NCBI RefSeq assembly: GCF_003852405.1
Contig: NZ_QAJM01000014.1
Location: 312,969-376,968, forward strand
Reading direction: 5' to 3'
DNA: 64,000 nucleotides
Source of the DNA: Pseudomonas sp. KBW05
Lineage (GTDB): Bacteria; Pseudomonadota; Gammaproteobacteria; Pseudomonadales; Pseudomonadaceae
The position numbers and the translations under genes were made by a program. The notes below the pieces were generated by a model, which worked only from the letters and a program-made list of their open reading frames with translations, had not been told where the DNA came from and made no database searches. How positions within the stretch are numbered: position 1 is the first letter of the stretch; each line of letters opens with the position of its first letter. Below are positions 15,617 to 64,000 of this stretch, piece by piece.

Positions 15617-17142
15617 ATGCGTACAAGTCTCTCGAATAACATCGCACTGGATCTGCCCTCCTCCCTGACCCCTGCAGCCGAGGGCCCCGGCCCATTGGTG
15701 CTGAGCCCGCGCCTGCACAACAAGGACCTGGCGCCACCAAGGTCGAAGGCCGACGCTGGGGGCGCTATAGCATCTTCGCGCTGTGGACCAATGACGTGCA
15801 CAACATCGCCAACTATTCGTTCGCCATTGGTTTATATGCATTGGGCTTGGGCGGCTGGCAGATTTTGCTGTCCTTGGGGATAGGTGCCGCACTGGTGTAC
15901 TTCTTCATGAACTTGTCGGGGTATATGGGCCAAAAGACCGGGGTGCCGTTCCCGGTAATCAGCCGTATCAGTTTCGGCATTCATGGCGCGCAGATTCCGG
16001 CGTTGATCCGCGCGGTGATTGCGATTGCCTGGTTTGGTATTCAGACCTACCTGGCCTCGGTGGTTTTCCGCGTCTTGCTGACGGCTATTCATCCAGGTTT
16101 TGCCGACTATGACCACGACTCGATCCTCGGCCTGTCGTCCCTCGGCTGGGCGTGTTTTGTCGCGATCTGGCTGGTGCAACTGGTGATCCTGGCTTACGGC
16201 ATGGAGATGGTACGTCGCTACGAAGGCTTCGCCGGGCCGGTGATTTTGCTGACGGTGGCGGCGTTGGCCGGCTGGATGTACTTCCAGACGGGCGGCAACA
16301 TCGCCTGGTCGATCCGCGAACCGCTCAGCGGCGGCGAGATGTGGCGCAATATCTTCGCCGGTGGCGCGCTGTGGCTGGCGATCTACGGCACGCTGATCCT
16401 CAACTTCTGTGATTTCGCCCGTTCCTCGCCGTGCCGCAAGACCATTCAGGTCGGCAACTTCTGGGGCCTGCCGGTGAATATCCTGGTGTTTGCCGCGATC
16501 ACCGTGCTGCTGTGCGGCGGGCAATTCCAGCTCAATGGCCGGGTGATCGAAAGCCCGACCGAGATCATCGCCGCGATCCCCAATACCTTCTTCCTGGTGC
16601 TCGGCTGCCTGGCGTTCCTGATCGTCACCGTCGCGGTGAACATCATGGCCAACTTCGTGGCGCCGGCGTTTGTGCTGAGCAACCTGGCGCCCAAGTACCT
16701 GAACTTCCGCCGTGCCGGGTTGATCAGCGCCACCGTTGCGGTGCTGATCCTGCCGTGGAACCTCTACAACAGCCCGCTGGTGATCGTGTATTTCCTTTCC
16801 GGCCTGGGCGCGCTGCTGGGGCCGCTGTACGGGATCATCATGGTCGATTACTGGCTGATCCGTAAAAGCCAGGTCGACGTGCTGCAACTGTATAGCGAAG
16901 ACCCGAACGGCGTTTATTACTACAGCCGGGGCGTCAACCTGCGCGCAGTGGCGGCGTTTATTCCTGCTGCCGTGATCGCCATTCTCCTGGCATTGCTGCC
17001 CGGTTTCGCCAGCGTGTCACCGTTTTCCTGGATGTTTGGCGCCGGTATTGCAGGGTTGCTGTACCTGCTGATCGCCAAGCGCCAGCCGTTCTACGCCGAT
17101 GTCAGCGGCGAAAGCATTGCCGTCGATAACGTCAGCCATTAA
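15617..17142 (+). pseudogene. NCS1-family nucleobase/hydantoin:cation symporter, one-base frameshift near the 5' end
   Basis: The start ATG at 15617 (MRTSLSNNIAL) leads into LSPRLHNKDLAP. The reading frame then breaks at 15735/15736, where one base is missing. The next frame continues TKVEGRRWGRYSIFALWTND and on to the stop at 17142. With the base restored the length is 508 residues, normal for NCS1 carriers with about 12 TM helices. The intact part begins inside the conserved TNDVHNIANYS motif, so a shorter native start is unlikely. The family imports allantoin, hydantoins, uracil or other nucleobases. The racemase-like gene follows 13 bases later. The rest of the frame is undamaged, so the change is recent or a sequencing error. 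Confidence 0.8.
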
Positions 17143-17155
17143 TCAAGGACATTCC

Positions 17156-17884
17156 ATGCGCATCCTCGTGGTCAACGTCAACACCACCGAATCCATCACC
17201 GACACCATCGCCCAGCAGGCACGGGCCGTGGCCGCGCCAGGCACCGAGATTGTCGGGCTCACGCCGTACTTCGGCGCGGAATCAGTGGAGGGCAATTTTG
17301 AAAGCTACCTGGCCGCCATCGCGGTGATGGACCGGGTGATGGCCTACGACCAACCCTTCGACGCGGTGATCCAGGCCGGCTACGGCGAACACGGCCGCGA
17401 AGGCTTGCAGGAGTTGCTCAACGTGCCAGTGGTGGACATCACCGAAGCGGCCGCCAGCACCGCGATGTTTCTGGGCCACGCCTATTCGGTGGTGACCACC
17501 CTCGACCGCACGGTGCCCCTGATCGAAGACCGCCTGAAACTCGCCGGGCTGTACCAACGCTGCGCGTCGGTGCGAGCCAGCGGCATGGCGGTGCTGGAGC
17601 TGGAAGAAAACCCGCTGGCCGCGATGGAAGCCATCGTGCGCCAGGCGGAACTGGCGATCAGCGAGGACAAGGCCGAGGTGATCTGCCTGGGCTGCGGCGG
17701 CATGGCCGGGCTGGACGAGCAGATTCGCCAGCGCACCGGCGTGCCGGTGGTGGATGGGGTGACGGCGGCGGTGACGATTGCGGAAGCGTTGGTGCGGTTG
17801 GGGTTGTCGACGTCTAAGGTGAGGACCTATGCGACGCCAAGGCCGAAGAAAGTCATTGGCTGGCCTAGCCGGTTCGGGCGGTAG
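17156..17884 (+). CDS. Asp/Glu/hydantoin (allantoin) racemase-family protein
   Basis: 242 residues from the ATG at 17156, preceded by AAGGAC. The family interconverts enantiomers of hydantoins or allantoin using two cysteines. The C-terminal Cys motif CLGCGGMAG (C180) is present. At the position of the first catalytic Cys this protein has AGYGEHG (G75/Y76) where racemases usually have a cysteine, so racemase activity is doubtful and it may be a related hydrolase-like subgroup. It is cotranscribed with the NCS1 permease behind a sigma-54 promoter, which points to nitrogen scavenging from a purine-derived or hydantoin compound. Confidence 0.8.
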   Translation: MRILVVNVNTTESITDTIAQQARAVAAPGTEIVGLTPYFGAESVEGNFESYLAAIAVMDRVMAYDQPFDAVIQAGYGEHGREGLQELLNVPVVDITEAAASTAMFLGHAYSVVTTLDRTVPLIEDRLKLAGLYQRCASVRASGMAVLELEENPLAAMEAIVRQAELAISEDKAEVICLGCGGMAGLDEQIRQRTGVPVVDGVTAAVTIAEALVRLGLSTSKVRTYATPRPKKVIGWPSRFGR

Positions 17885-58165: not shown

Positions 58166-59368
58166 ATGCATGCCTCATCCCCGGTGAGCACCAAGCTGTT
58201 CGCCCTGTTTTGCCTTGCCAGTTTTTTGCTGTCGCTGTCTTACGGCTCGACCTTTTTGCTGTCGCTGCTGATTCATACACGCGGCGGTGACGAGCACGAT
58301 GCGGGCAGTGTGATTTCCACGGCGATGCTCAGCACTTTTGTGGCGGTGATGATCTCCGGGCACTTATCCGATGCATGGGGCGCGGCCCGCACGATTGCCG
58401 GGATGGGCTTGCTGTTGGTGGTGGCCTGCCTGGGATTTGCGCTGATGCCCGGCTTTGGCCAGGGCTTGCGGGTGTTTGGCCTGGCCTTGGGCCTGGGTTG
58501 GGGGGTGTTCTATACCTTGGGTCCGATCATCGTCGCGATGTTGGTTGCACCAGAGCAACGGGCCAAGTACTTCGCGTTGCTGTCGGGCAGCATGATGAGT
58601 GGCATCGGTGCCGGGCCATTGCTGGGGCGTGCGGCGAGTGCGCTGGGGTTGCCGCTGACCACGGCGTTTTACATCGCCGCACTGGCCAGCCTGGTTGGGG
58701 TGCTGGTGTTTTGGCGCCTGAGCCGGCATCTCAAGCAGGAAGCGACAGTGGCGAAAATCTCCTGGGCCGCCACGCGCCAGGTGCTGTCCTCCAAAGCAGC
58801 GTTCGCGATCATCATGGTCGGCCTCGGCGGTTGCGTGTTTGGCGGGTTGTCGTCGTTCCAGACCAGCTATGCGGCGGCGCACGCGCTGGACTATTCGCTG
58901 TTCTTTGGCGGCTTCCTGAGCGCGGCGATCACCAGCCGCTTGCTGATCGCCGGGTGGGTGGTCAAGCGTGATGCCTACGCCGCGGCGTGTGTGTTGTCGG
59001 GGCTGATGCTGCTGTCGGTATTGATGTTTGGCTTCACGGTGTCGGGGCCCTTCAGTTACCTGCTGGCGGCGGTCACCTTGGGCGTGGGTTACGGCCTGAC
59101 GTACTCGGTGATCAACGGGTTGGTGGCCAATGAAGCACCGGCGGGCACCACGCCCCAGGCGCTGTTGCTGTTCAGCCTGGGCTACTTTGTCGGGGTGTTC
59201 GGGTTTCCGTTGCTGGCGGGGCGGATCATCGTCGAATACGGGCTGACGACCTTGCTGCTGACGGTCGTGGCAGTGGCGCTGTGCAATTGGTTGATCACCG
59301 TGGTGCGGCTGATCTGGCGCCGTTCGTCGCCAGCCAGGCACCAACAGCCGATGGGGGCGGACCAATAG
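58166..59368 (+). CDS. MFS transporter
   Basis: 400 residues, 12 predicted TM helices. Motif A-like GHLSDAWGAARTIAGMGL follows TM2, and a second half-repeat is visible. Sugar or drug efflux cannot be decided. Downstream is a short gap and the small secreted protein gene on the same strand. Confidence 0.9.
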   Translation: MHASSPVSTKLFALFCLASFLLSLSYGSTFLLSLLIHTRGGDEHDAGSVISTAMLSTFVAVMISGHLSDAWGAARTIAGMGLLLVVACLGFALMPGFGQGLRVFGLALGLGWGVFYTLGPIIVAMLVAPEQRAKYFALLSGSMMSGIGAGPLLGRAASALGLPLTTAFYIAALASLVGVLVFWRLSRHLKQEATVAKISWAATRQVLSSKAAFAIIMVGLGGCVFGGLSSFQTSYAAAHALDYSLFFGGFLSAAITSRLLIAGWVVKRDAYAAACVLSGLMLLSVLMFGFTVSGPFSYLLAAVTLGVGYGLTYSVINGLVANEAPAGTTPQALLLFSLGYFVGVFGFPLLAGRIIVEYGLTTLLLTVVAVALCNWLITVVRLIWRRSSPARHQQPMGADQ

Positions 59369-59402
59369 AGGGTAAGGACAATCATCCTAAGGAGACACAC
59401 TC

Positions 59403-59723
59403 ATGAAGCATTCCCAGTTTGCTGCCCTCGCCCTCACCGGCCTGTTGTCTGCGGTTTCCCTGAGTGGTTTTGCGGCCACGTCGTCCACCGGCCCGACCAA
59501 CCCGTCTACCAGCGAGACCCAGAAATCCATGGGCACCGGCATGGAGATCAACGGCGGCGCCGTCGACAACAGCAACAGTGCCGACCCGCACACCAAAGGC
59601 CAGGACACCCAGCGCCAGGCACCCGCTGCCGTGGGCAATGGCAAGATGGGGCCGGCGGTGAATGAGCCGAAGGTGCACAAGGATGACAACCTGCCGGGTG
59701 CGCCGAAGCAGCCGGCAGAGTAG
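59403..59723 (+). CDS. Small secreted protein, Thr/Ser/Asn-rich
   Basis: 106 residues. AAGGAGAC precedes the ATG. Signal peptide 1-24 (ALTGLLSAVSLSGFAA). The mature part is polar and low-complexity (Ser, Thr, Asn, Gly) and ends PGAPKQPAE. No Cys. Probably disordered in the periplasm. Function unknown. Confidence 0.72.
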   Translation: MKHSQFAALALTGLLSAVSLSGFAATSSTGPTNPSTSETQKSMGTGMEINGGAVDNSNSADPHTKGQDTQRQAPAAVGNGKMGPAVNEPKVHKDDNLPGAPKQPAE

Positions 59724-59759
59724 TTTCGTCGCACACACAGCCAGACTGTGGCGGGCTTT

Positions 59760-59848
59760 TGTGGGAGCGGGCTTGCTCGCGAATGCGGTGTGTCAGCCAC
59801 ACATTAATTGACTGATACACCGCCTTCGCGAGCAAGCCCGCTCCCACA
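59760..59848. repeat. REPIN (GAGCGGGC family)
   Basis: TGTGGGAGCGGGCTTGCTCG / complement with a centre TCAGCCACACATTAATTGAC, between the convergent small secreted protein and PfkB genes. Confidence 0.9.
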
Positions 59849-59862
59849 GTTTTTGATTGGGT

Positions 59863-60768
59863 TTATTCAGTGAGAAGCGCGTCTACTTCGGCAGTGCCGG
59901 GTGATGTGGCCGGGCCCCAGCGTGTCACGGCCAGCGCCGCTGCGGCATTCGCTCGGCGCGCCGCTTGGGCGGGCGTCAAGCCACTCGCCAACCCAGCGAT
60001 AAACACACCCGCATGGGCGTCCCCTGCACCATTGCTGTCCACGGCCTTCACCTTGAAGCCCGGCACGTGTTGCTCGTTCACCCAGCAGCCGTTCGGCCCA
60101 TCCCGAACCACGCGCAATGCGCCCTCGGGCAGATGGCGTTGCAGGTCGCCCAAGGCTTGCGCCAGCGAATCCGCACCGGTAAATGCCAAGGCTTCCGGGC
60201 CGTTGCTGGTCCAGATATCGATGCGCGGCAGCAACGCGACCATCAACGGCGAATCCACCGCCCTGACCAGCGGGCCCGGGTCGAACACCACGCGGATCTC
60301 ACGCGGCAGCGCCAGCAACCAATCGAGCAACGCCTGCGCCTTGCCGTCCAGCAACAAGCTGTAGCCGCTGACGTAGACATAGTCGTCCGCACGCGGCAGC
60401 ACGCCGGCCAAATCCTCGGCGCTCAAATCTCCCTCGGCGCCGAGGTGGGAAATGAACGTGCGCTCGGTGCTCGCCTCGGTCAGAGACACACATAAGCCGG
60501 TGTCTTTATCGGTGCTGGCCACCAGGGCCATCTCCACGCCTTCGGCCTGCATCGCCGCGCGCGCCAGGTCGCCAAAACGGCCATTGCCGTGGCGCCCGAG
60601 GTACACCACCGGCAAGCCATTGCGCTTGGCGGCGGCCATCACGTTGAAACCGCCGCCGGCTTCAAAACTGGCAGACCGCGCCAGCACATCGCCGCCGCTG
60701 ACGGGCAGGGAATCCAGGGCCATGACCAGGTCGACGATGACCTGGCCGGTATGCAGCAATCTAGACAT
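59863..60768 (-). CDS. PfkB-family (ribokinase-like) carbohydrate kinase
   Basis: 301 residues from the ATG at 60768. GGGFNVMAA (38-46) is the substrate/lid signature and SNGAGDAHAG (245-254) carries catalytic base D250. Ribokinase-like kinases phosphorylate ribose, nucleosides or pseudouridine. It overlaps the NCS1 permease gene stop by 8 bases. Together with the ADP-ribosylglycohydrolase-family gene, phosphorylation of a freed ribose or ribosyl product is expected (inference). Confidence 0.9.
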   Translation of the reverse strand: MSRLLHTGQVIVDLVMALDSLPVSGGDVLARSASFEAGGGFNVMAAAKRNGLPVVYLGRHGNGRFGDLARAAMQAEGVEMALVASTDKDTGLCVSLTEASTERTFISHLGAEGDLSAEDLAGVLPRADDYVYVSGYSLLLDGKAQALLDWLLALPREIRVVFDPGPLVRAVDSPLMVALLPRIDIWTSNGPEALAFTGADSLAQALGDLQRHLPEGALRVVRDGPNGCWVNEQHVPGFKVKAVDSNGAGDAHAGVFIAGLASGLTPAQAARRANAAAALAVTRWGPATSPGTAEVDALLTE

Positions 60769-62227
60769 GGTGGCTCTCAACTAACGCCGGGCGACGATCA
60801 GCCGCGCCGCCCAGTACCGCATAAATCCCACCGGCCACCAGGAAAGTCACGATCCAACCCAGGCCGTTGTGGCCCAACCAGGAGTCAGACAGCGGCCCGG
60901 CGAACCAGATATTTTCGGCGGTGGTACCAATGGTGGTGAAGCTGAAGCCCAGCACAATCGCCACCGCCCACGCGCCGAACGCACGCCATTCCACGCCGCC
61001 GCGATACCAGTAGGCGCTGCTGGGGCTGACGTCCAGCAAGTCCTTGGGGCTGTAGTAGTGACGGTGGATCAGGTCGACCACGAAGATCCCGACCCACGCG
61101 GTAATTGGCACCGCCAGCAGCGAGATGAAGGTGATGAATGGGCCGTAGAAGCTGTCGGCGATCAGCATGAAGTAGATGGAACCGGCAAAGATCGCGACGA
61201 TATCGACGATCACCGCGTGCACGCGCTTGACCTTCAAGCCGAGGGTCAAGGTGGTGAGGCCCGCCGAGTACACCGAGAGGTTGTTGGACAGCAGCAACCC
61301 GCCGAAGGCCGTGATCAGGTACGGCACGGCCATCCAGGTCGGCAGCATATCGCGGATCGCGATGATCGGGTCGGTGGCCGAGGCCAGGTCATTGTTGCCC
61401 ACCGACAGCAGGCCGCCGAGGGTGATCAGCAACACCAGCGGAATGCCCGCGCCAAACGCCGCCGACGCCACCAGGCGCACGGCCTTGACGCTGCGGCGCT
61501 GGTAACGCGACATGTCGGCACCGGCGTTGGCCCAACCAATCCCGGTGCCAGCCGCCATGGTGCCGACGCCGATGATCATCGCGCTGAGCGGCGCCGGGGT
61601 CGCATTGAACACGGCGCTCCAGTCGATGGTGGCGCACAGGAAGCCGCCCACCAGCAGGTTCAGCGCGCCGAACACGTAGGTCGCCCACTTCTGGATCACC
61701 AGCAAAGTGGCGTGGCCCAGACCGGACACTGCCAGGGTCAGCAGCACAAAAATGGCGATAAACAGCAGGGTCAGCAGGGGTGCGCTTTTCGCGGCGACGG
61801 GCGAACCAAACAGGATCGAGCACAACGACAGCAGCACGAAGGCGGCGGTGGTGGTGTTAACAGTTTCCCAACCCAGGCGCGACATCAGCGAGACCAGCGT
61901 CGGGCCGATATTGCCGCGCACGCCGAAGATCGCCCGGGACAGCGTCAGGCTCGGCGCACGCCCACGCCGGCCGGCGATAGAGATGATGCCCACCACGGCG
62001 AACGAACCGGCCGCGCCAAGGATCGCAACGATGATCGCCTGCCAGATGGCCAGGCCACGAAACGCCACCAGCGTCGCGCCCAAGGGCAAACCGAGGATGC
62101 TGATATTGGCCGCGAACCATACCCAGAACAGTTGCAGCGGATGGCCGTTGCACTCGCCTTCCGGGACCGGCTCGATGCCGCGTGTTTCCAGTTGCCCGGC
62201 GCTTTGGCCGGAAGAGGTGTTGCTCAT
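60761..62227 (-). CDS. NCS1-family purine/cytosine permease-like transporter
   Basis: 488 residues, about 12 TM helices. Purine-cytosine permease family: WFAANISILGLPLGATLV, TGIGWANAGADMSRYQRR. It would import a nucleobase or nucleoside. Second NCS1 carrier in the window, but of a different subgroup from 15.6-17.1 kb. Located between the ADP-ribosylglycohydrolase-family gene (117-base gap) and PfkB (overlap). Confidence 0.92.
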   Translation of the reverse strand: MSNTSSGQSAGQLETRGIEPVPEGECNGHPLQLFWVWFAANISILGLPLGATLVAFRGLAIWQAIIVAILGAAGSFAVVGIISIAGRRGRAPSLTLSRAIFGVRGNIGPTLVSLMSRLGWETVNTTTAAFVLLSLCSILFGSPVAAKSAPLLTLLFIAIFVLLTLAVSGLGHATLLVIQKWATYVFGALNLLVGGFLCATIDWSAVFNATPAPLSAMIIGVGTMAAGTGIGWANAGADMSRYQRRSVKAVRLVASAAFGAGIPLVLLITLGGLLSVGNNDLASATDPIIAIRDMLPTWMAVPYLITAFGGLLLSNNLSVYSAGLTTLTLGLKVKRVHAVIVDIVAIFAGSIYFMLIADSFYGPFITFISLLAVPITAWVGIFVVDLIHRHYYSPKDLLDVSPSSAYWYRGGVEWRAFGAWAVAIVLGFSFTTIGTTAENIWFAGPLSDSWLGHNGLGWIVTFLVAGGIYAVLGGAADRRPALVESHHV

Positions 62228-62291
62228 GAAGGGATACTCCGGGTGCCGATATTGTTGTGGTTGTGGCAGAGGTTCTATTCAACTCGGTTGA

Positions 62292-62332
62292 ATGTGGGAG
62301 CTGGCTTCTGTGGGAGCTGGCTCCCACATTTT
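62292..62332. repeat. REP remnant (GAGCTGGC family)
   Basis: TGTGGGAGCTGGCTTC followed by TGTGGGAGCTGGCTCCCACA: two collapsed REP arms between the permease and ADP-ribosylglycohydrolase-family genes. Confidence 0.7.
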
Positions 62333-62344
62333 TATCGGTGGCGC

Positions 62345-63346
62345 TTATCGAATTGCGAGCAGCCCTTCGACCAGCGGCTGCAAGTCCAAACCATTCACCC
62401 GCTTGACCTGCTCCACCATCTCCTGCGGCCAGCACTGCATGCCCAGGCAGGCACCCAGCATGGCGCCGAGAATCGCGGCGATGGTGTCGGTGTCGCCGCC
62501 AAGGCTGGCGGCCAGGCACAGGGCTTCGAAGGCATTCATCTCGCCCACCGCCACTTGCTGGGCCAGGGCAAACGACACCACCACCGACTCCTGGGACGCA
62601 ACCGAGGTGCCGATCAACTCGTAGAGCAAATCGGCAAACAAGGCTTTATCACCACTGCCGACACTCAAGGTGCGCGCCCAGCTGATACGGGTGGAGATGC
62701 GCCCGCCAGCGATCCAGTGGCCATGGTGCTCGGCCTGCTGGGCAATCTGGGTGCCGATGTTCAGTGCTTCGCCCAGGTCCACGCCGTTGATGCCGGCCGA
62801 GACCACGGCCGCCACGGCGGCGGCGCTGGAGATGCCCAGGCTGGTGTTGTGGGTGACCTGGCACGCCTGGATCACGGCCTGGATAAAGTGCGCGGGGTCG
62901 CTGACATCGGCGGCAATACCGACGGGCGTGATACGCATCGCCGCGCCATTGGTGGTGCCATAACGCCCGGACTCTTCCGGCGTGTGGCCGGCGAGGATCA
63001 TGTCGATCGCGCGTTTGGTCGAGGGGCCGAGCAAATCCTGGGAGCCCTTGGCGCGCATCACCGCCTCCCAGTCGATCAGGCGCTGGGCAAGCACGGTGGG
63101 TTCGATGCGGCCTTGGCCTTCTACCAGCAACTCGCCCACCAGGATCGCCTGCTCAGTGTCATCGGTGATGGAACCGGCGGGCATGTCTGGCGCGATGGGT
63201 TGGTCGGCGCCGGCATCTTCCAGAGCGGTGATGGCACCGAAGCGGGCGCGCACTTGCTCGCGGCTCAAGGACTGGGTCGGCATGCCCAGGGCGTCGCCCA
63301 AAGCCAGGCCATAGAACGCGCCGAGGGCGCGGTTGTGCGGGGTCAT
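62345..63346 (-). CDS. ADP-ribosylglycohydrolase-family protein
   Basis: 333 residues, DraG/ARH fold. Dinuclear Mg2+ ligands T61-D62-D63 (ITDDTEQA) and D285/D287 (GGDTDTIAAI). Family members cleave N-glycosidic bonds of ADP-ribosylated targets or of small ribosyl compounds. Here the operon context with a permease and a sugar kinase favours a catabolic role on a ribosylated small molecule. The ATG overlaps the GntR stop by 4 bases. Confidence 0.9.
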   Translation of the reverse strand: MTPHNRALGAFYGLALGDALGMPTQSLSREQVRARFGAITALEDAGADQPIAPDMPAGSITDDTEQAILVGELLVEGQGRIEPTVLAQRLIDWEAVMRAKGSQDLLGPSTKRAIDMILAGHTPEESGRYGTTNGAAMRITPVGIAADVSDPAHFIQAVIQACQVTHNTSLGISSAAAVAAVVSAGINGVDLGEALNIGTQIAQQAEHHGHWIAGGRISTRISWARTLSVGSGDKALFADLLYELIGTSVASQESVVVSFALAQQVAVGEMNAFEALCLAASLGGDTDTIAAILGAMLGACLGMQCWPQEMVEQVKRVNGLDLQPLVEGLLAIR

Positions 63347-64000
63347 TTCGAACTCCCAAATTGCAGGTGCAGGCGAAAGTGCAGAGGATCGAGCAAGCTT
63401 TCGACGTATTCCATAAAGCGCTCGCGACGGTCATAGGTGGTGCGCGAGGCCTTGAGAAACACACTGCCGGCCGGACGGCCGAGCAGCTCGGCGTCTTCGG
63501 CACTGAGGGGCTCGGCGCCGATCCATTGGTCACCTTCAGCGCCGACATAGCCGTAGGCCGCCAGCGTGATGGTCAGCGAGCTCTCGATCAGGCCGACTGT
63601 TGGCAGGCTCTCCAGGCCACCGGACGCCGGCATCAACGAGCGCTCCAGGGACACGGCGGTGCCATCGCTGGTGTAGCGCAGGCGGTCGAGGGCAATGAAT
63701 TGATCGCTGCCGAAACGGCTGAGCAAGTCAGGCCGGGTCACGGCTTCGAGGCGCAGGATATCGGTGCTAACCCGCGCACCGGTGTCAGCCAGGGCCTGGG
63801 CCCAGCCGCTGCGTTGGTCGAGCACCATGCCGTCAAAGGTGACGATGGAGCCGACGCCGCTTTGGGTGGCGATGTAGTTGCGTCGTTTGAGTTCGGCGAG
63901 GGCTTCACGCAAGGTGCCGCGACTGACCGAAAACTCTTCGGCCAGTTGGTGCTCGCCAGGCAACAGGAAGCCGTCGGCCATCACCCCACCTTCGATACGG
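63343..64000 (-). CDS. GntR-family (UTRA) regulator, 5' end beyond the window
   Basis: The frame is open to the right edge. The visible part starts in the helix-turn-helix region (RIEGGVMADGFLLPGEHQLA, SRGTLREALAELKRR) and contains the UTRA ligand domain (about 80-215) ending FRLHLQFGSSK. It is the first gene of the permease/hydrolase/kinase operon and overlaps the hydrolase gene by 4 bases, so it is probably the local regulator. Confidence 0.88.
   Translation of the reverse strand, partial: RIEGGVMADGFLLPGEHQLAEEFSVSRGTLREALAELKRRNYIATQSGVGSIVTFDGMVLDQRSGWAQALADTGARVSTDILRLEAVTRPDLLSRFGSDQFIALDRLRYTSDGTAVSLERSLMPASGGLESLPTVGLIESSLTITLAAYGYVGAEGDQWIGAEPLSAEDAELLGRPAGSVFLKASRTTYDRRERFMEYVESLLDPLHFRLHLQFGSSK

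Follow-up and report, generated by a model that had tools for sequence, protein, structure and literature searches.

The ADP-ribosylglycohydrolase (ARH) fold is known for enzymes acting on ribosyl bonds and for the removal of ADP-ribose from proteins, and the known ARH substrates bear a 5'-phosphorylated ribose. For pseudouridine, E. coli possesses the importer PsuT, the PfkB kinase PsuK and the intracellular glycosidase PsuG, with the kinase acting first and PsuG not known to belong to the ARH fold. From Bacteroides, the rus locus for ribose and nucleosides is said to carry an ARH-family gene together with genes for ribokinases and a nucleoside hydrolase, with uptake of the SusC/SusD type. 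The E. coli cluster yegTUV and its regulator gene yegW are presented as functionally unknown in a 2024 paper. PMC10819704 describes YegW as a repressor of yegTUV whose release in vitro was triggered by ADP-glucose, whereas neither glucose nor ADP had this effect. PMC6195507 lists a yegV deletion as glycogen-deficient on ADP-glucose medium and names NupC and NupG, not YegT, as ADP-glucose importers. A glycogen-related function is thus far the sole role proposed for yegT, yegU and yegV, and among open-licence PMC papers no substrate assignment was found for YegU or for any ARH of the cassette type described below.

Gene layout and relation to yegTUV

In the window, i.e., the complete analyzed stretch of 64,000 nucleotides from Pseudomonas sp. 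KBW05, the four same-strand genes proposed in the initial annotation are real, all lying on the minus strand and encoding proteins with Pfam domains above cut-off (Table 1). Two of the three junctions overlap, as had been claimed, by 4 nt between the GntR and ARH genes and by 8 nt between the NCS1 and PfkB genes, and the ARH and NCS1 genes are spaced by 117 nt. For the kinase, an alternative TTG start at position 60780 would result in 305 aa. The start codon of the regulator gene lies roughly 53 nt outside the window, and neighboring contig DNA (L002, 8312-9022) gives a full length of 236 aa. An open reading frame on the plus strand (60869-63436, 855 aa) was rejected as a gene because it is positioned antisense to three conserved genes. 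Scanning positions 59300-64000 for promoters did not reveal any candidate above chance, and the Rfam search of the window gave zero matches. By eye, a TTGCTG-N18-TATCAA-like element was spotted ahead of the GntR gene, outside the window.

Table 1. Genes of the cassette, with positions in the window.
Feature	Position	Strand	Domain evidence
GntR-UTRA regulator, YegW/GgaR-like	63343 to beyond 64000	-	PF07702 and PF00392 above cut-off
ARH of the YegU subfamily, 333 aa, proposed cassette glycosidase	62345-63346	-	PF03747, 197.9 bits (cut-off 26.2)
NCS1-family permease, 488 aa, proposed importer	60761-62227	-	PF02133, 184.7 bits
PfkB-family kinase, YegV clade, 301 aa	59863-60768 (from ATG)	-	PF00294, 141.7 bits

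Judged by sequence comparison, the cassette is a relative of E. coli yegTUV plus yegW. The ARH shows 31% identity to YegU over 328 aa (E 4e-47), the kinase 28% to YegV and the regulator, in a pairwise match, 32% to YegW over 130 aa (E 6e-12). Both systems combine a YegU-type ARH, a neighboring YegV-type PfkB kinase and a GntR-UTRA regulator in tight packing, and the ARH and kinase trees unite the E. coli proteins with those of the window. However, identity amounts to about 30%, the yegW gene is divergent and located at the opposite end, and YegT belongs to the nucleoside:H+ symporter family (PF03825) and gave no significant match with the NCS1 permease. Given this relative, which the initial annotation overlooked, the gene set itself does not represent a novelty.

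Conservation of the cassette and exchange of importers

The order GntR-ARH-NCS1-PfkB is kept in all 20 fetched same-genus loci, taken from the 68 of 150 searched genomes that gave a match, and in 76/80 named Pseudomonas loci, which represent the best 80 of 510 relatives; these were all Pseudomonas, phyla beyond Pseudomonadota being covered via plasmid records alone. The four exceptions are due to a split pfkB (L076 and L081) or a contig edge after the ARH gene (L117 and L122). Hence, the four-gene set is not a matter of chance. Outside the genus, the ARH, PfkB and GntR genes are retained in 20/20 cassette-type loci of the phylum sample, so that the co-occurrence on which the initial annotation had made its reading depend is borne out both within and beyond Pseudomonas. 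The importer varies among these 20 loci and is either an NCS1 permease, a nucleoside:H+ symporter or a polyamine-type ABC system, and polyamine/opine-type ABC importers were found in 13 loci. Including the plasmid records, ARH and kinase genes lie on the same strand, adjacent or an NCS1-sized gap apart, in 36 of the 38 subfamily loci outside the genus (20/20 from the phylum sample and 16/18 from plasmids), the two kinase-free cases being the loci of Listeria and Enterococcus in which a PTS replaces importer and kinase. There, a beta-glucoside PTS (733 and 816 bits at a cut-off of 614.7) adjoins the ARH gene and no kinase was found. A conserved ARH-kinase pair is thus combined with importers of four types that bear no relation to each other, and the kinase is lacking precisely in the PTS loci. 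This pattern provides a concrete hypothesis for yegTUV, in which the ARH-fold enzyme would serve as a metabolic glycosidase.

Neither a cassette-type kinase nor such an importer was found within about 5 kb of other ARHs (0/15). Among 398 genomes, the subfamily profile leaves a gap between 298 bits for members and 77 bits for the next match. In the class sample, the 15/369 matches comprise the own genome and 14 weak ARHs outside the subfamily; in the own genome, the cassette ARH is the single PF03747 match. Of 21 plasmid loci fetched, those from Salmonella, Yersinia frederiksenii and Klebsiella (L188, L189 and L190) were omitted from the cassette counts; they represent a more distant ARH group (210-238 bits), with a PfkB of another clade in two and no PfkB in one.

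Assignment of hydrolase, kinase and permease

The Pfam score and the metal ligands place the hydrolase in the ARH superfamily. The Mg2+ ligands T61-D62-D63 and D285/D287, described as intact in the initial annotation, are indeed present, and T61, D62, D63, H166, D285, D287 and T288 are invariant in 12/12 diverse cassette ARHs. With DraG, ARH3 and the ADP-ribosylarginine hydrolases, the protein shares the PF03747 family and the metal-ligand motifs, but its scores stay far below the cut-offs for DraG (TIGR02662, 94.9 of 337.05 bits) and Tri1 (NF041672, 64.5 of 490 bits), leading to rejection of both identities, and its genomic setting is one of uptake and phosphorylation by a kinase. As far as can be judged from sequence, the cassette ARH is a distinct subfamily and not DraG. 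The structure 8za7 (Lmo0067) was rejected as the Listeria cassette type, reaching 55.8 bits with the A2 profile.

The kinase belongs, like RbsK, to the PfkB family, its D250 (301-aa numbering), already pointed out as the catalytic base, aligns with the RbsK base D255, and the ribokinase model TIGR02152 is its top-scoring curated model. Nevertheless, it is not a plain ribokinase, since it attains only 98.6 of 299.65 bits with this model and 91.3 of 341 bits with another one, has GG-GFN in place of GGKGANQ, and falls outside the RbsK clade. All 23 cassette kinases fall into a single clade that excludes RbsK (SH-aLRT 95), whereas an RbsK-like PfkB protein of the own genome (L200) groups with RbsK and shares the GGKGANQ motif with the E. 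coli enzyme. The kinase tree mirrors the two main ARH groups, Pseudomonas/Burkholderiaceae/alphaproteobacteria versus enterics/Plesiomonas/Lactobacillaceae, both trees being quick reconstructions with long-branch warnings. The cassette NCS1 permeases likewise form one clade, uniting Pseudomonas with Burkholderiaceae, Plesiomonas and Lactobacillaceae (support 100/99). As the permease gave no PDB match at E up to 1, a substrate is not deducible from structure; NCS1 and nucleoside:H+ symporter proteins are generally associated with nucleosides and nucleobases.

Proposed pathway, alternatives and substrate

The cassette probably serves the regulated salvage of a small glycoside by import, phosphorylation and ARH-catalyzed cleavage, as a relative of yegTUV. 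A catabolic reading is well supported by the conserved gene set, the exchanged importers, the lack of such neighbors at the 15 other ARHs and the kinase and NCS1 clades. We infer a catabolic role, a kinase-first order, a regulator logic and an N-glycosidic bond as follows. The compound would be imported by the NCS1 permease and phosphorylated at the sugar by the PfkB kinase, most likely at the 5'-OH of the intact riboside; the ARH-fold enzyme would then cut the glycosidic bond to give free aglycone and a sugar phosphate, which would be ribose-5-phosphate in case of a riboside, and the GntR-UTRA protein would keep the genes repressed unless it has bound the compound or one of its derivatives. 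As the cassette does not encode an isomerase or aldolase, the freed sugar phosphate should enter central metabolism directly. By analogy, the sequence of importer, PfkB kinase and intracellular glycosidase would resemble PsuT-PsuK-PsuG, but PsuK is outside the cassette kinase clade and an ARH-fold enzyme is proposed in the place of PsuG. Ribose is tentatively considered as the sugar, at slightly less than an even chance, and this assignment and that of a cationic, e.g., nicotinamide-like aglycone are the least certain elements.

The initial annotation had assumed uptake and breakdown of a ribosylated base. Its idea of an uptake and catabolic operon stands in view of the conserved set, the exchanged importers, the GntR-type regulator and the distinct ARH subfamily, whereas ribose as the sugar and a ribosylated base as the substrate are called into question by a kinase outside the ribokinase clade that lacks GGKGANQ and by the two Firmicutes ARHs associated with a beta-glucoside-type PTS. 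Its main line, with the ARH splitting an imported N-riboside and the kinase phosphorylating the free ribose, is regarded as unlikely. It implies the same catabolic architecture, would require no extra genes for ribose-5-phosphate and agrees with TIGR02152 as the best kinase model, but not with the clade and motif of the kinase or the presence of a separate RbsK-like protein. Moreover, it leaves the PTS in the kinase's stead unexplained, since a PTS phosphorylates during uptake, i.e., ahead of hydrolysis, and the ARH there would therefore meet a pre-phosphorylated substrate. Together with the 5'-phosphorylated ribose of known ARH substrates and the alignment of H166 with the phosphate-contacting His of ARH3, these PTS loci are the reason for preferring the kinase-first order. 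The same loci favor a glucoside in Listeria and Enterococcus, and a substrate with a sugar other than ribose, either a glycoside or a glycosylamine (e.g., a glucoside, a conjugated amino sugar or an opine-like molecule), would also be compatible with the polyamine/opine-type ABC importers and the kinase unlike ribokinase. However, the PTS-linked ARHs may have altered specificity, the ties of both symporter families to nucleosides and the ribosyl bonds cleaved by the ARH fold point the other way, and a non-riboside substrate is considered somewhat unlikely.

Removal of ADP-ribose from protein or nucleic acid, as by DraG or ARH3, with the neighbors merely using the released parts, is highly improbable. 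Although the metal ligands are intact and the DraG and ARH3 structures show weak similarity, the low DraG and Tri1 scores, the separate subfamily always accompanied by importer plus kinase or by a PTS, and the varying DraG-type Asp97 column (D in the Pseudomonas branch, N in YegU, F in the PTS loci) argue against it. A role in the control of ADP-glucose or glycogen, as proposed for E. coli GgaR/yegTUV with the proteins acting on ADP-glucose or another ADP-sugar, is judged quite improbable. It would account for the release of YegW (PMC10819704) and the yegV phenotype (PMC6195507), but freely exchanged importers fit uptake better than internal control, NupC and NupG, but not YegT, serve as ADP-glucose importers (PMC6195507), and the excerpts of both papers describe neither another effector nor an enzyme assay for YegT, YegU or YegV.

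Concerning the substrate of the proposed salvage route, sequence-derived hints at a cationic N-riboside come from NAD-salvage neighbors, acidic PotD-site residues and the YegT family. In a more far-reaching version, which is doubtful, the ARH fold would have a metabolic branch for the salvage of cationic, perhaps alpha-anomeric N-ribosides, with the 5'-phosphate introduced by PfkB or PTS, ARH cleavage to ribose-5-phosphate and base, and yegTUV as the enteric version. Candidates would perhaps be alpha-nicotinamide riboside and N-ribosyl guanidino or amine compounds overlooked by beta-specific nucleosidases. If true, the ARH fold would extend from reversing ADP-ribosylation to nutrient salvage as a metabolic glycosidase. 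On Lactiplantibacillus plasmids, genes for an NrtR-type Nudix regulator, a nicotinate phosphoribosyltransferase and an isochorismatase-family hydrolase are located directly upstream of ARH-NCS1-PfkB; the two plasmids have identical protein accessions and count as one lineage, and NAD-salvage neighbors are absent at the cassettes L185 and L191. In the binding proteins of the ABC variants, the PotD residues W34, Y37, D168, E171, W229, W255 and D257 are kept in 13/13, possibly for reasons other than cation binding, and Y85 and Y293 are replaced by small residues.

The four-gene cassette in Pseudomonas

As predicted in the initial annotation, the GntR-UTRA, ADP-ribosylglycohydrolase-fold (ARH), NCS1 permease and PfkB kinase genes of strain KBW05 lie on one strand with two overlapping junctions (GntR/ARH by 4 nt, NCS1/PfkB by 8 nt), and 117 nt separate the ARH from the NCS1 gene. 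The residues highlighted there are likewise present, namely T61, D62, D63, D285 and D287 of the ARH, conserved without exception in 12 diverse relatives, and D250 of the kinase (301-aa numbering). The cassette ARH is the only PF03747 match of its genome, in which 7 NCS1 and 9 PfkB matches were counted.

Cassette genes in the window and related gene sets in fetched plasmid-record loci (L-numbers)
Feature	Position	Strand	Remark
GntR-UTRA regulator	window, 63343 to past 64000	-	gene completed in DNA outside the window
ARH	window, 62345-63346	-	PF03747
NCS1 permease	window, 60761-62227	-	PF02133
PfkB kinase	window, 59863-60768 from ATG	-	PF00294
PRD regulator, beta-glucoside-type PTS and cassette-subfamily ARH, no kinase nearby	L177, 5072-7981; L179, 4076-6981		Enterococcus raffinosus, Listeria
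Genes for an NrtR-type Nudix regulator, a nicotinate phosphoribosyltransferase and an isochorismatase, followed directly by ARH-NCS1-PfkB	L184, 2821-9193; also L192		Lactiplantibacillus plasmids

At 15796-17884 (+) of the window, a second NCS1 permease gene adjoins a gene of the Asp/Glu/hydantoin racemase family. On the strand opposite to the ARH and permease genes runs an 855-aa open frame (60869-63436, +), which most likely arose as a side effect of GC-rich codon use. Inverted repeats of the GTGGGAGC type, a kind common between Pseudomonas genes, are found in the ARH-NCS1 gap (62309-62328) and after the kinase gene (about 59757-59855); a scan for terminator-like sites gave a count not above that of shuffles.

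Within the genus, an ARH match at E up to 1e-10 was obtained in 68 of 150 genomes, and all 20 of these that were fetched for a gene-order check have the complete set, in unchanged order and on a single strand. Among 80 named Pseudomonas loci, the best of 510 relatives, 76 show all four genes in order, two have a split pfkB and two end at the contig end after the ARH gene. Pseudomonas cedrina subsp. fulgida (L076) and P. lactucae (L081) are the species whose cassette pfkB is broken into two frames. Across the 20 fetched loci, the permease is the best conserved protein (80-98% identity), ahead of the ARH at 68-94% and the kinase at 60-86%. Of the 70 loci longer than 12 kb, 34 share the upstream neighbours seen in the window; therefore, the cassette occupies more than one place.

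Distribution, importer exchange and relation to yegTUV

Of 398 genomes of the phylum searched with a profile, 27 matched, 26 at 298 bits or above and, after a clear gap, one at 77 bits. The high-scoring genomes comprise that of the window, five more Pseudomonas and 20 others, whose surroundings were fetched. In all 20, a cassette-type kinase lies on the same strand and a GntR-type gene is present, so that the gene set is conserved together outside the genus as well, with varying importer type (nucleoside:H+ symporter in 10, polyamine-type ABC set in nine, NCS1 in one). Separate searches of plasmid records gave 51, 56 and 61 matches; among 21 loci fetched, 18 belong to the cassette subfamily and have NCS1 (eight), symporter (four), ABC (four) or PTS (two) importers. 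The kinase is present in 16 of these 18 and a GntR gene in 10; none was seen in six, in one case because the record starts at the ARH gene. Both PTS loci have PRD-type regulators in place of GntR and are also the two kinase-less loci, their PTS beside the ARH being of the beta-glucoside subfamily (over cut-off). As a control, 14 non-subfamily ARHs of the class sample and the 77-bit match were inspected over about 5 kb on each side, and none of these 15 has a cassette-type kinase or importer there.

The gene set is already known as annotated E. coli genes without function, and the Pseudomonas form with its NCS1 importer is a variant of it. Compared with E. coli MG1655 (2176000-2190000), the ARH aligns with YegU at 31% over 328 aa (E 4e-47), the kinase with YegV at 28% over 299 aa (E 2e-25) and the regulator with YegW at 32% over 130 aa (E 6e-12), whereas the permease does not match YegT, a member of the nucleoside:H+ symporter family. 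Repression of yegTUV by YegW (GgaR), released in vitro by ADP-glucose but not by glucose or ADP, has been described in a report stating no clear function for yegT, yegU and yegV (PMC10819704), and a yegV deletion is listed among the glycogen-deficient ones on ADP-glucose medium (PMC6195507). Among the open-licence papers searched, none was found to name a substrate of YegU or of any cassette ARH. The Bacteroides rus locus reportedly holds an ARH-family gene among ribose genes. In several enteric genomes (L003, L150, L152, L155-L158, L186), yegTUVW adjoins thiM/thiD; the phylum sample includes 10 symporter loci, of which five have both genes beside yegTUVW and one more has thiM only. In L149 (7651-8919, MFS_1) and L154 (8079-9365), yegV and yegW are separated by a second MFS gene.

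In the ARH tree (56 rows, quick mode), the symporter group forms one clade (96), joined by the NCS1 cassettes from Plesiomonas and Lactobacillaceae (99), and the PTS pair forms another (100), other ARHs lying outside (93). The 23 cassette kinases (quick mode) form one clade (95) separate from RbsK, PsuK, FruK, FrlD and seven other kinases of the own genome, and their two main groups are identical to those of the ARH tree. Among permeases (careful mode), a branch (100/99) sets the seven cassette proteins apart from six other NCS1 proteins of the own genome and CodB. Long-branch warnings make deep positions in these trees unsure; importer exchange within an ancient NCS1-ARH-PfkB set is the most probable history.

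Proposed reaction order and substrate candidates

A set of importer, kinase, hydrolase and repressor, in which the importer is exchangeable, suits a pathway that takes up a small compound and degrades it. Loss of the kinase together with gain of a PTS suggests that the sugar part becomes phosphorylated and, as phosphorylation by a PTS accompanies import, that the ARH can act on a glycoside already bearing phosphate. We therefore favour a sequence like the kinase-before-glycosidase order of PsuK-PsuG, in which the compound would first be phosphorylated at its sugar part by the kinase and the resulting glycoside would then be the ARH substrate. The substrate ribose of ARH enzymes described so far bears a 5'-phosphate, and H166, aligned with a phosphate-contacting histidine of ARH3, is invariant in the alignment of cassette ARHs. 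The reverse order, in which ARH cleavage would precede a ribokinase-like reaction, agrees less well with the kinase, which lacks the GGKGANQ signature of RbsK and lies outside the RbsK clade, with which another PfkB protein of the own genome groups.

Ribose, as supposed in the initial annotation, is a plausible yet tentative assignment for the sugar, and a non-ribose glycoside is the less probable alternative. Hints at a cationic N-riboside come from the transporter family of YegT, from the ABC-type loci and from NAD-type genes. All 13 ABC binding proteins share about 30% identity with E. coli PotD. Of the spermidine-binding residues of PotD, they retain W34, Y37, D168, E171, W229, W255 and D257, and E36, S83, Y85 and Y293 are changed in every one. 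In two Lactiplantibacillus plantarum plasmids, NAD-type genes precede ARH-NCS1-PfkB, the two groups being 307 nt apart. One encodes a Nudix protein whose winged-helix domain is of the NrtR type (41.7 bits, cut-off 27), another a nicotinate phosphoribosyltransferase (683.5 bits, cut-off 469) and the third an isochorismatase-family hydrolase with nicotinamidase as best curated model, below cut-off. As the protein accessions of both plasmids are identical, this neighbourhood represents one lineage, and NAD-type genes are absent from two other Lactobacillaceae cassettes. Also speaking against a cationic N-riboside are the beta-glucoside-type PTS beside the ARH and a more distant ARH group with an SIS-domain protein, amidohydrolases or an MFS_2 sugar transporter, partners indicating that ARHs of the wider branch accompany varied sugar chemistry.

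A nucleoside hydrolase gene is located nearby in L184. Partner sets of the distant group (L188, L189, L190) are MFS_2 with a kinase annotated as aminoimidazole riboside kinase; an SIS-domain protein with a kinase, a phytase-like esterase and UshA; and a mannose-type PTS with amidohydrolases.
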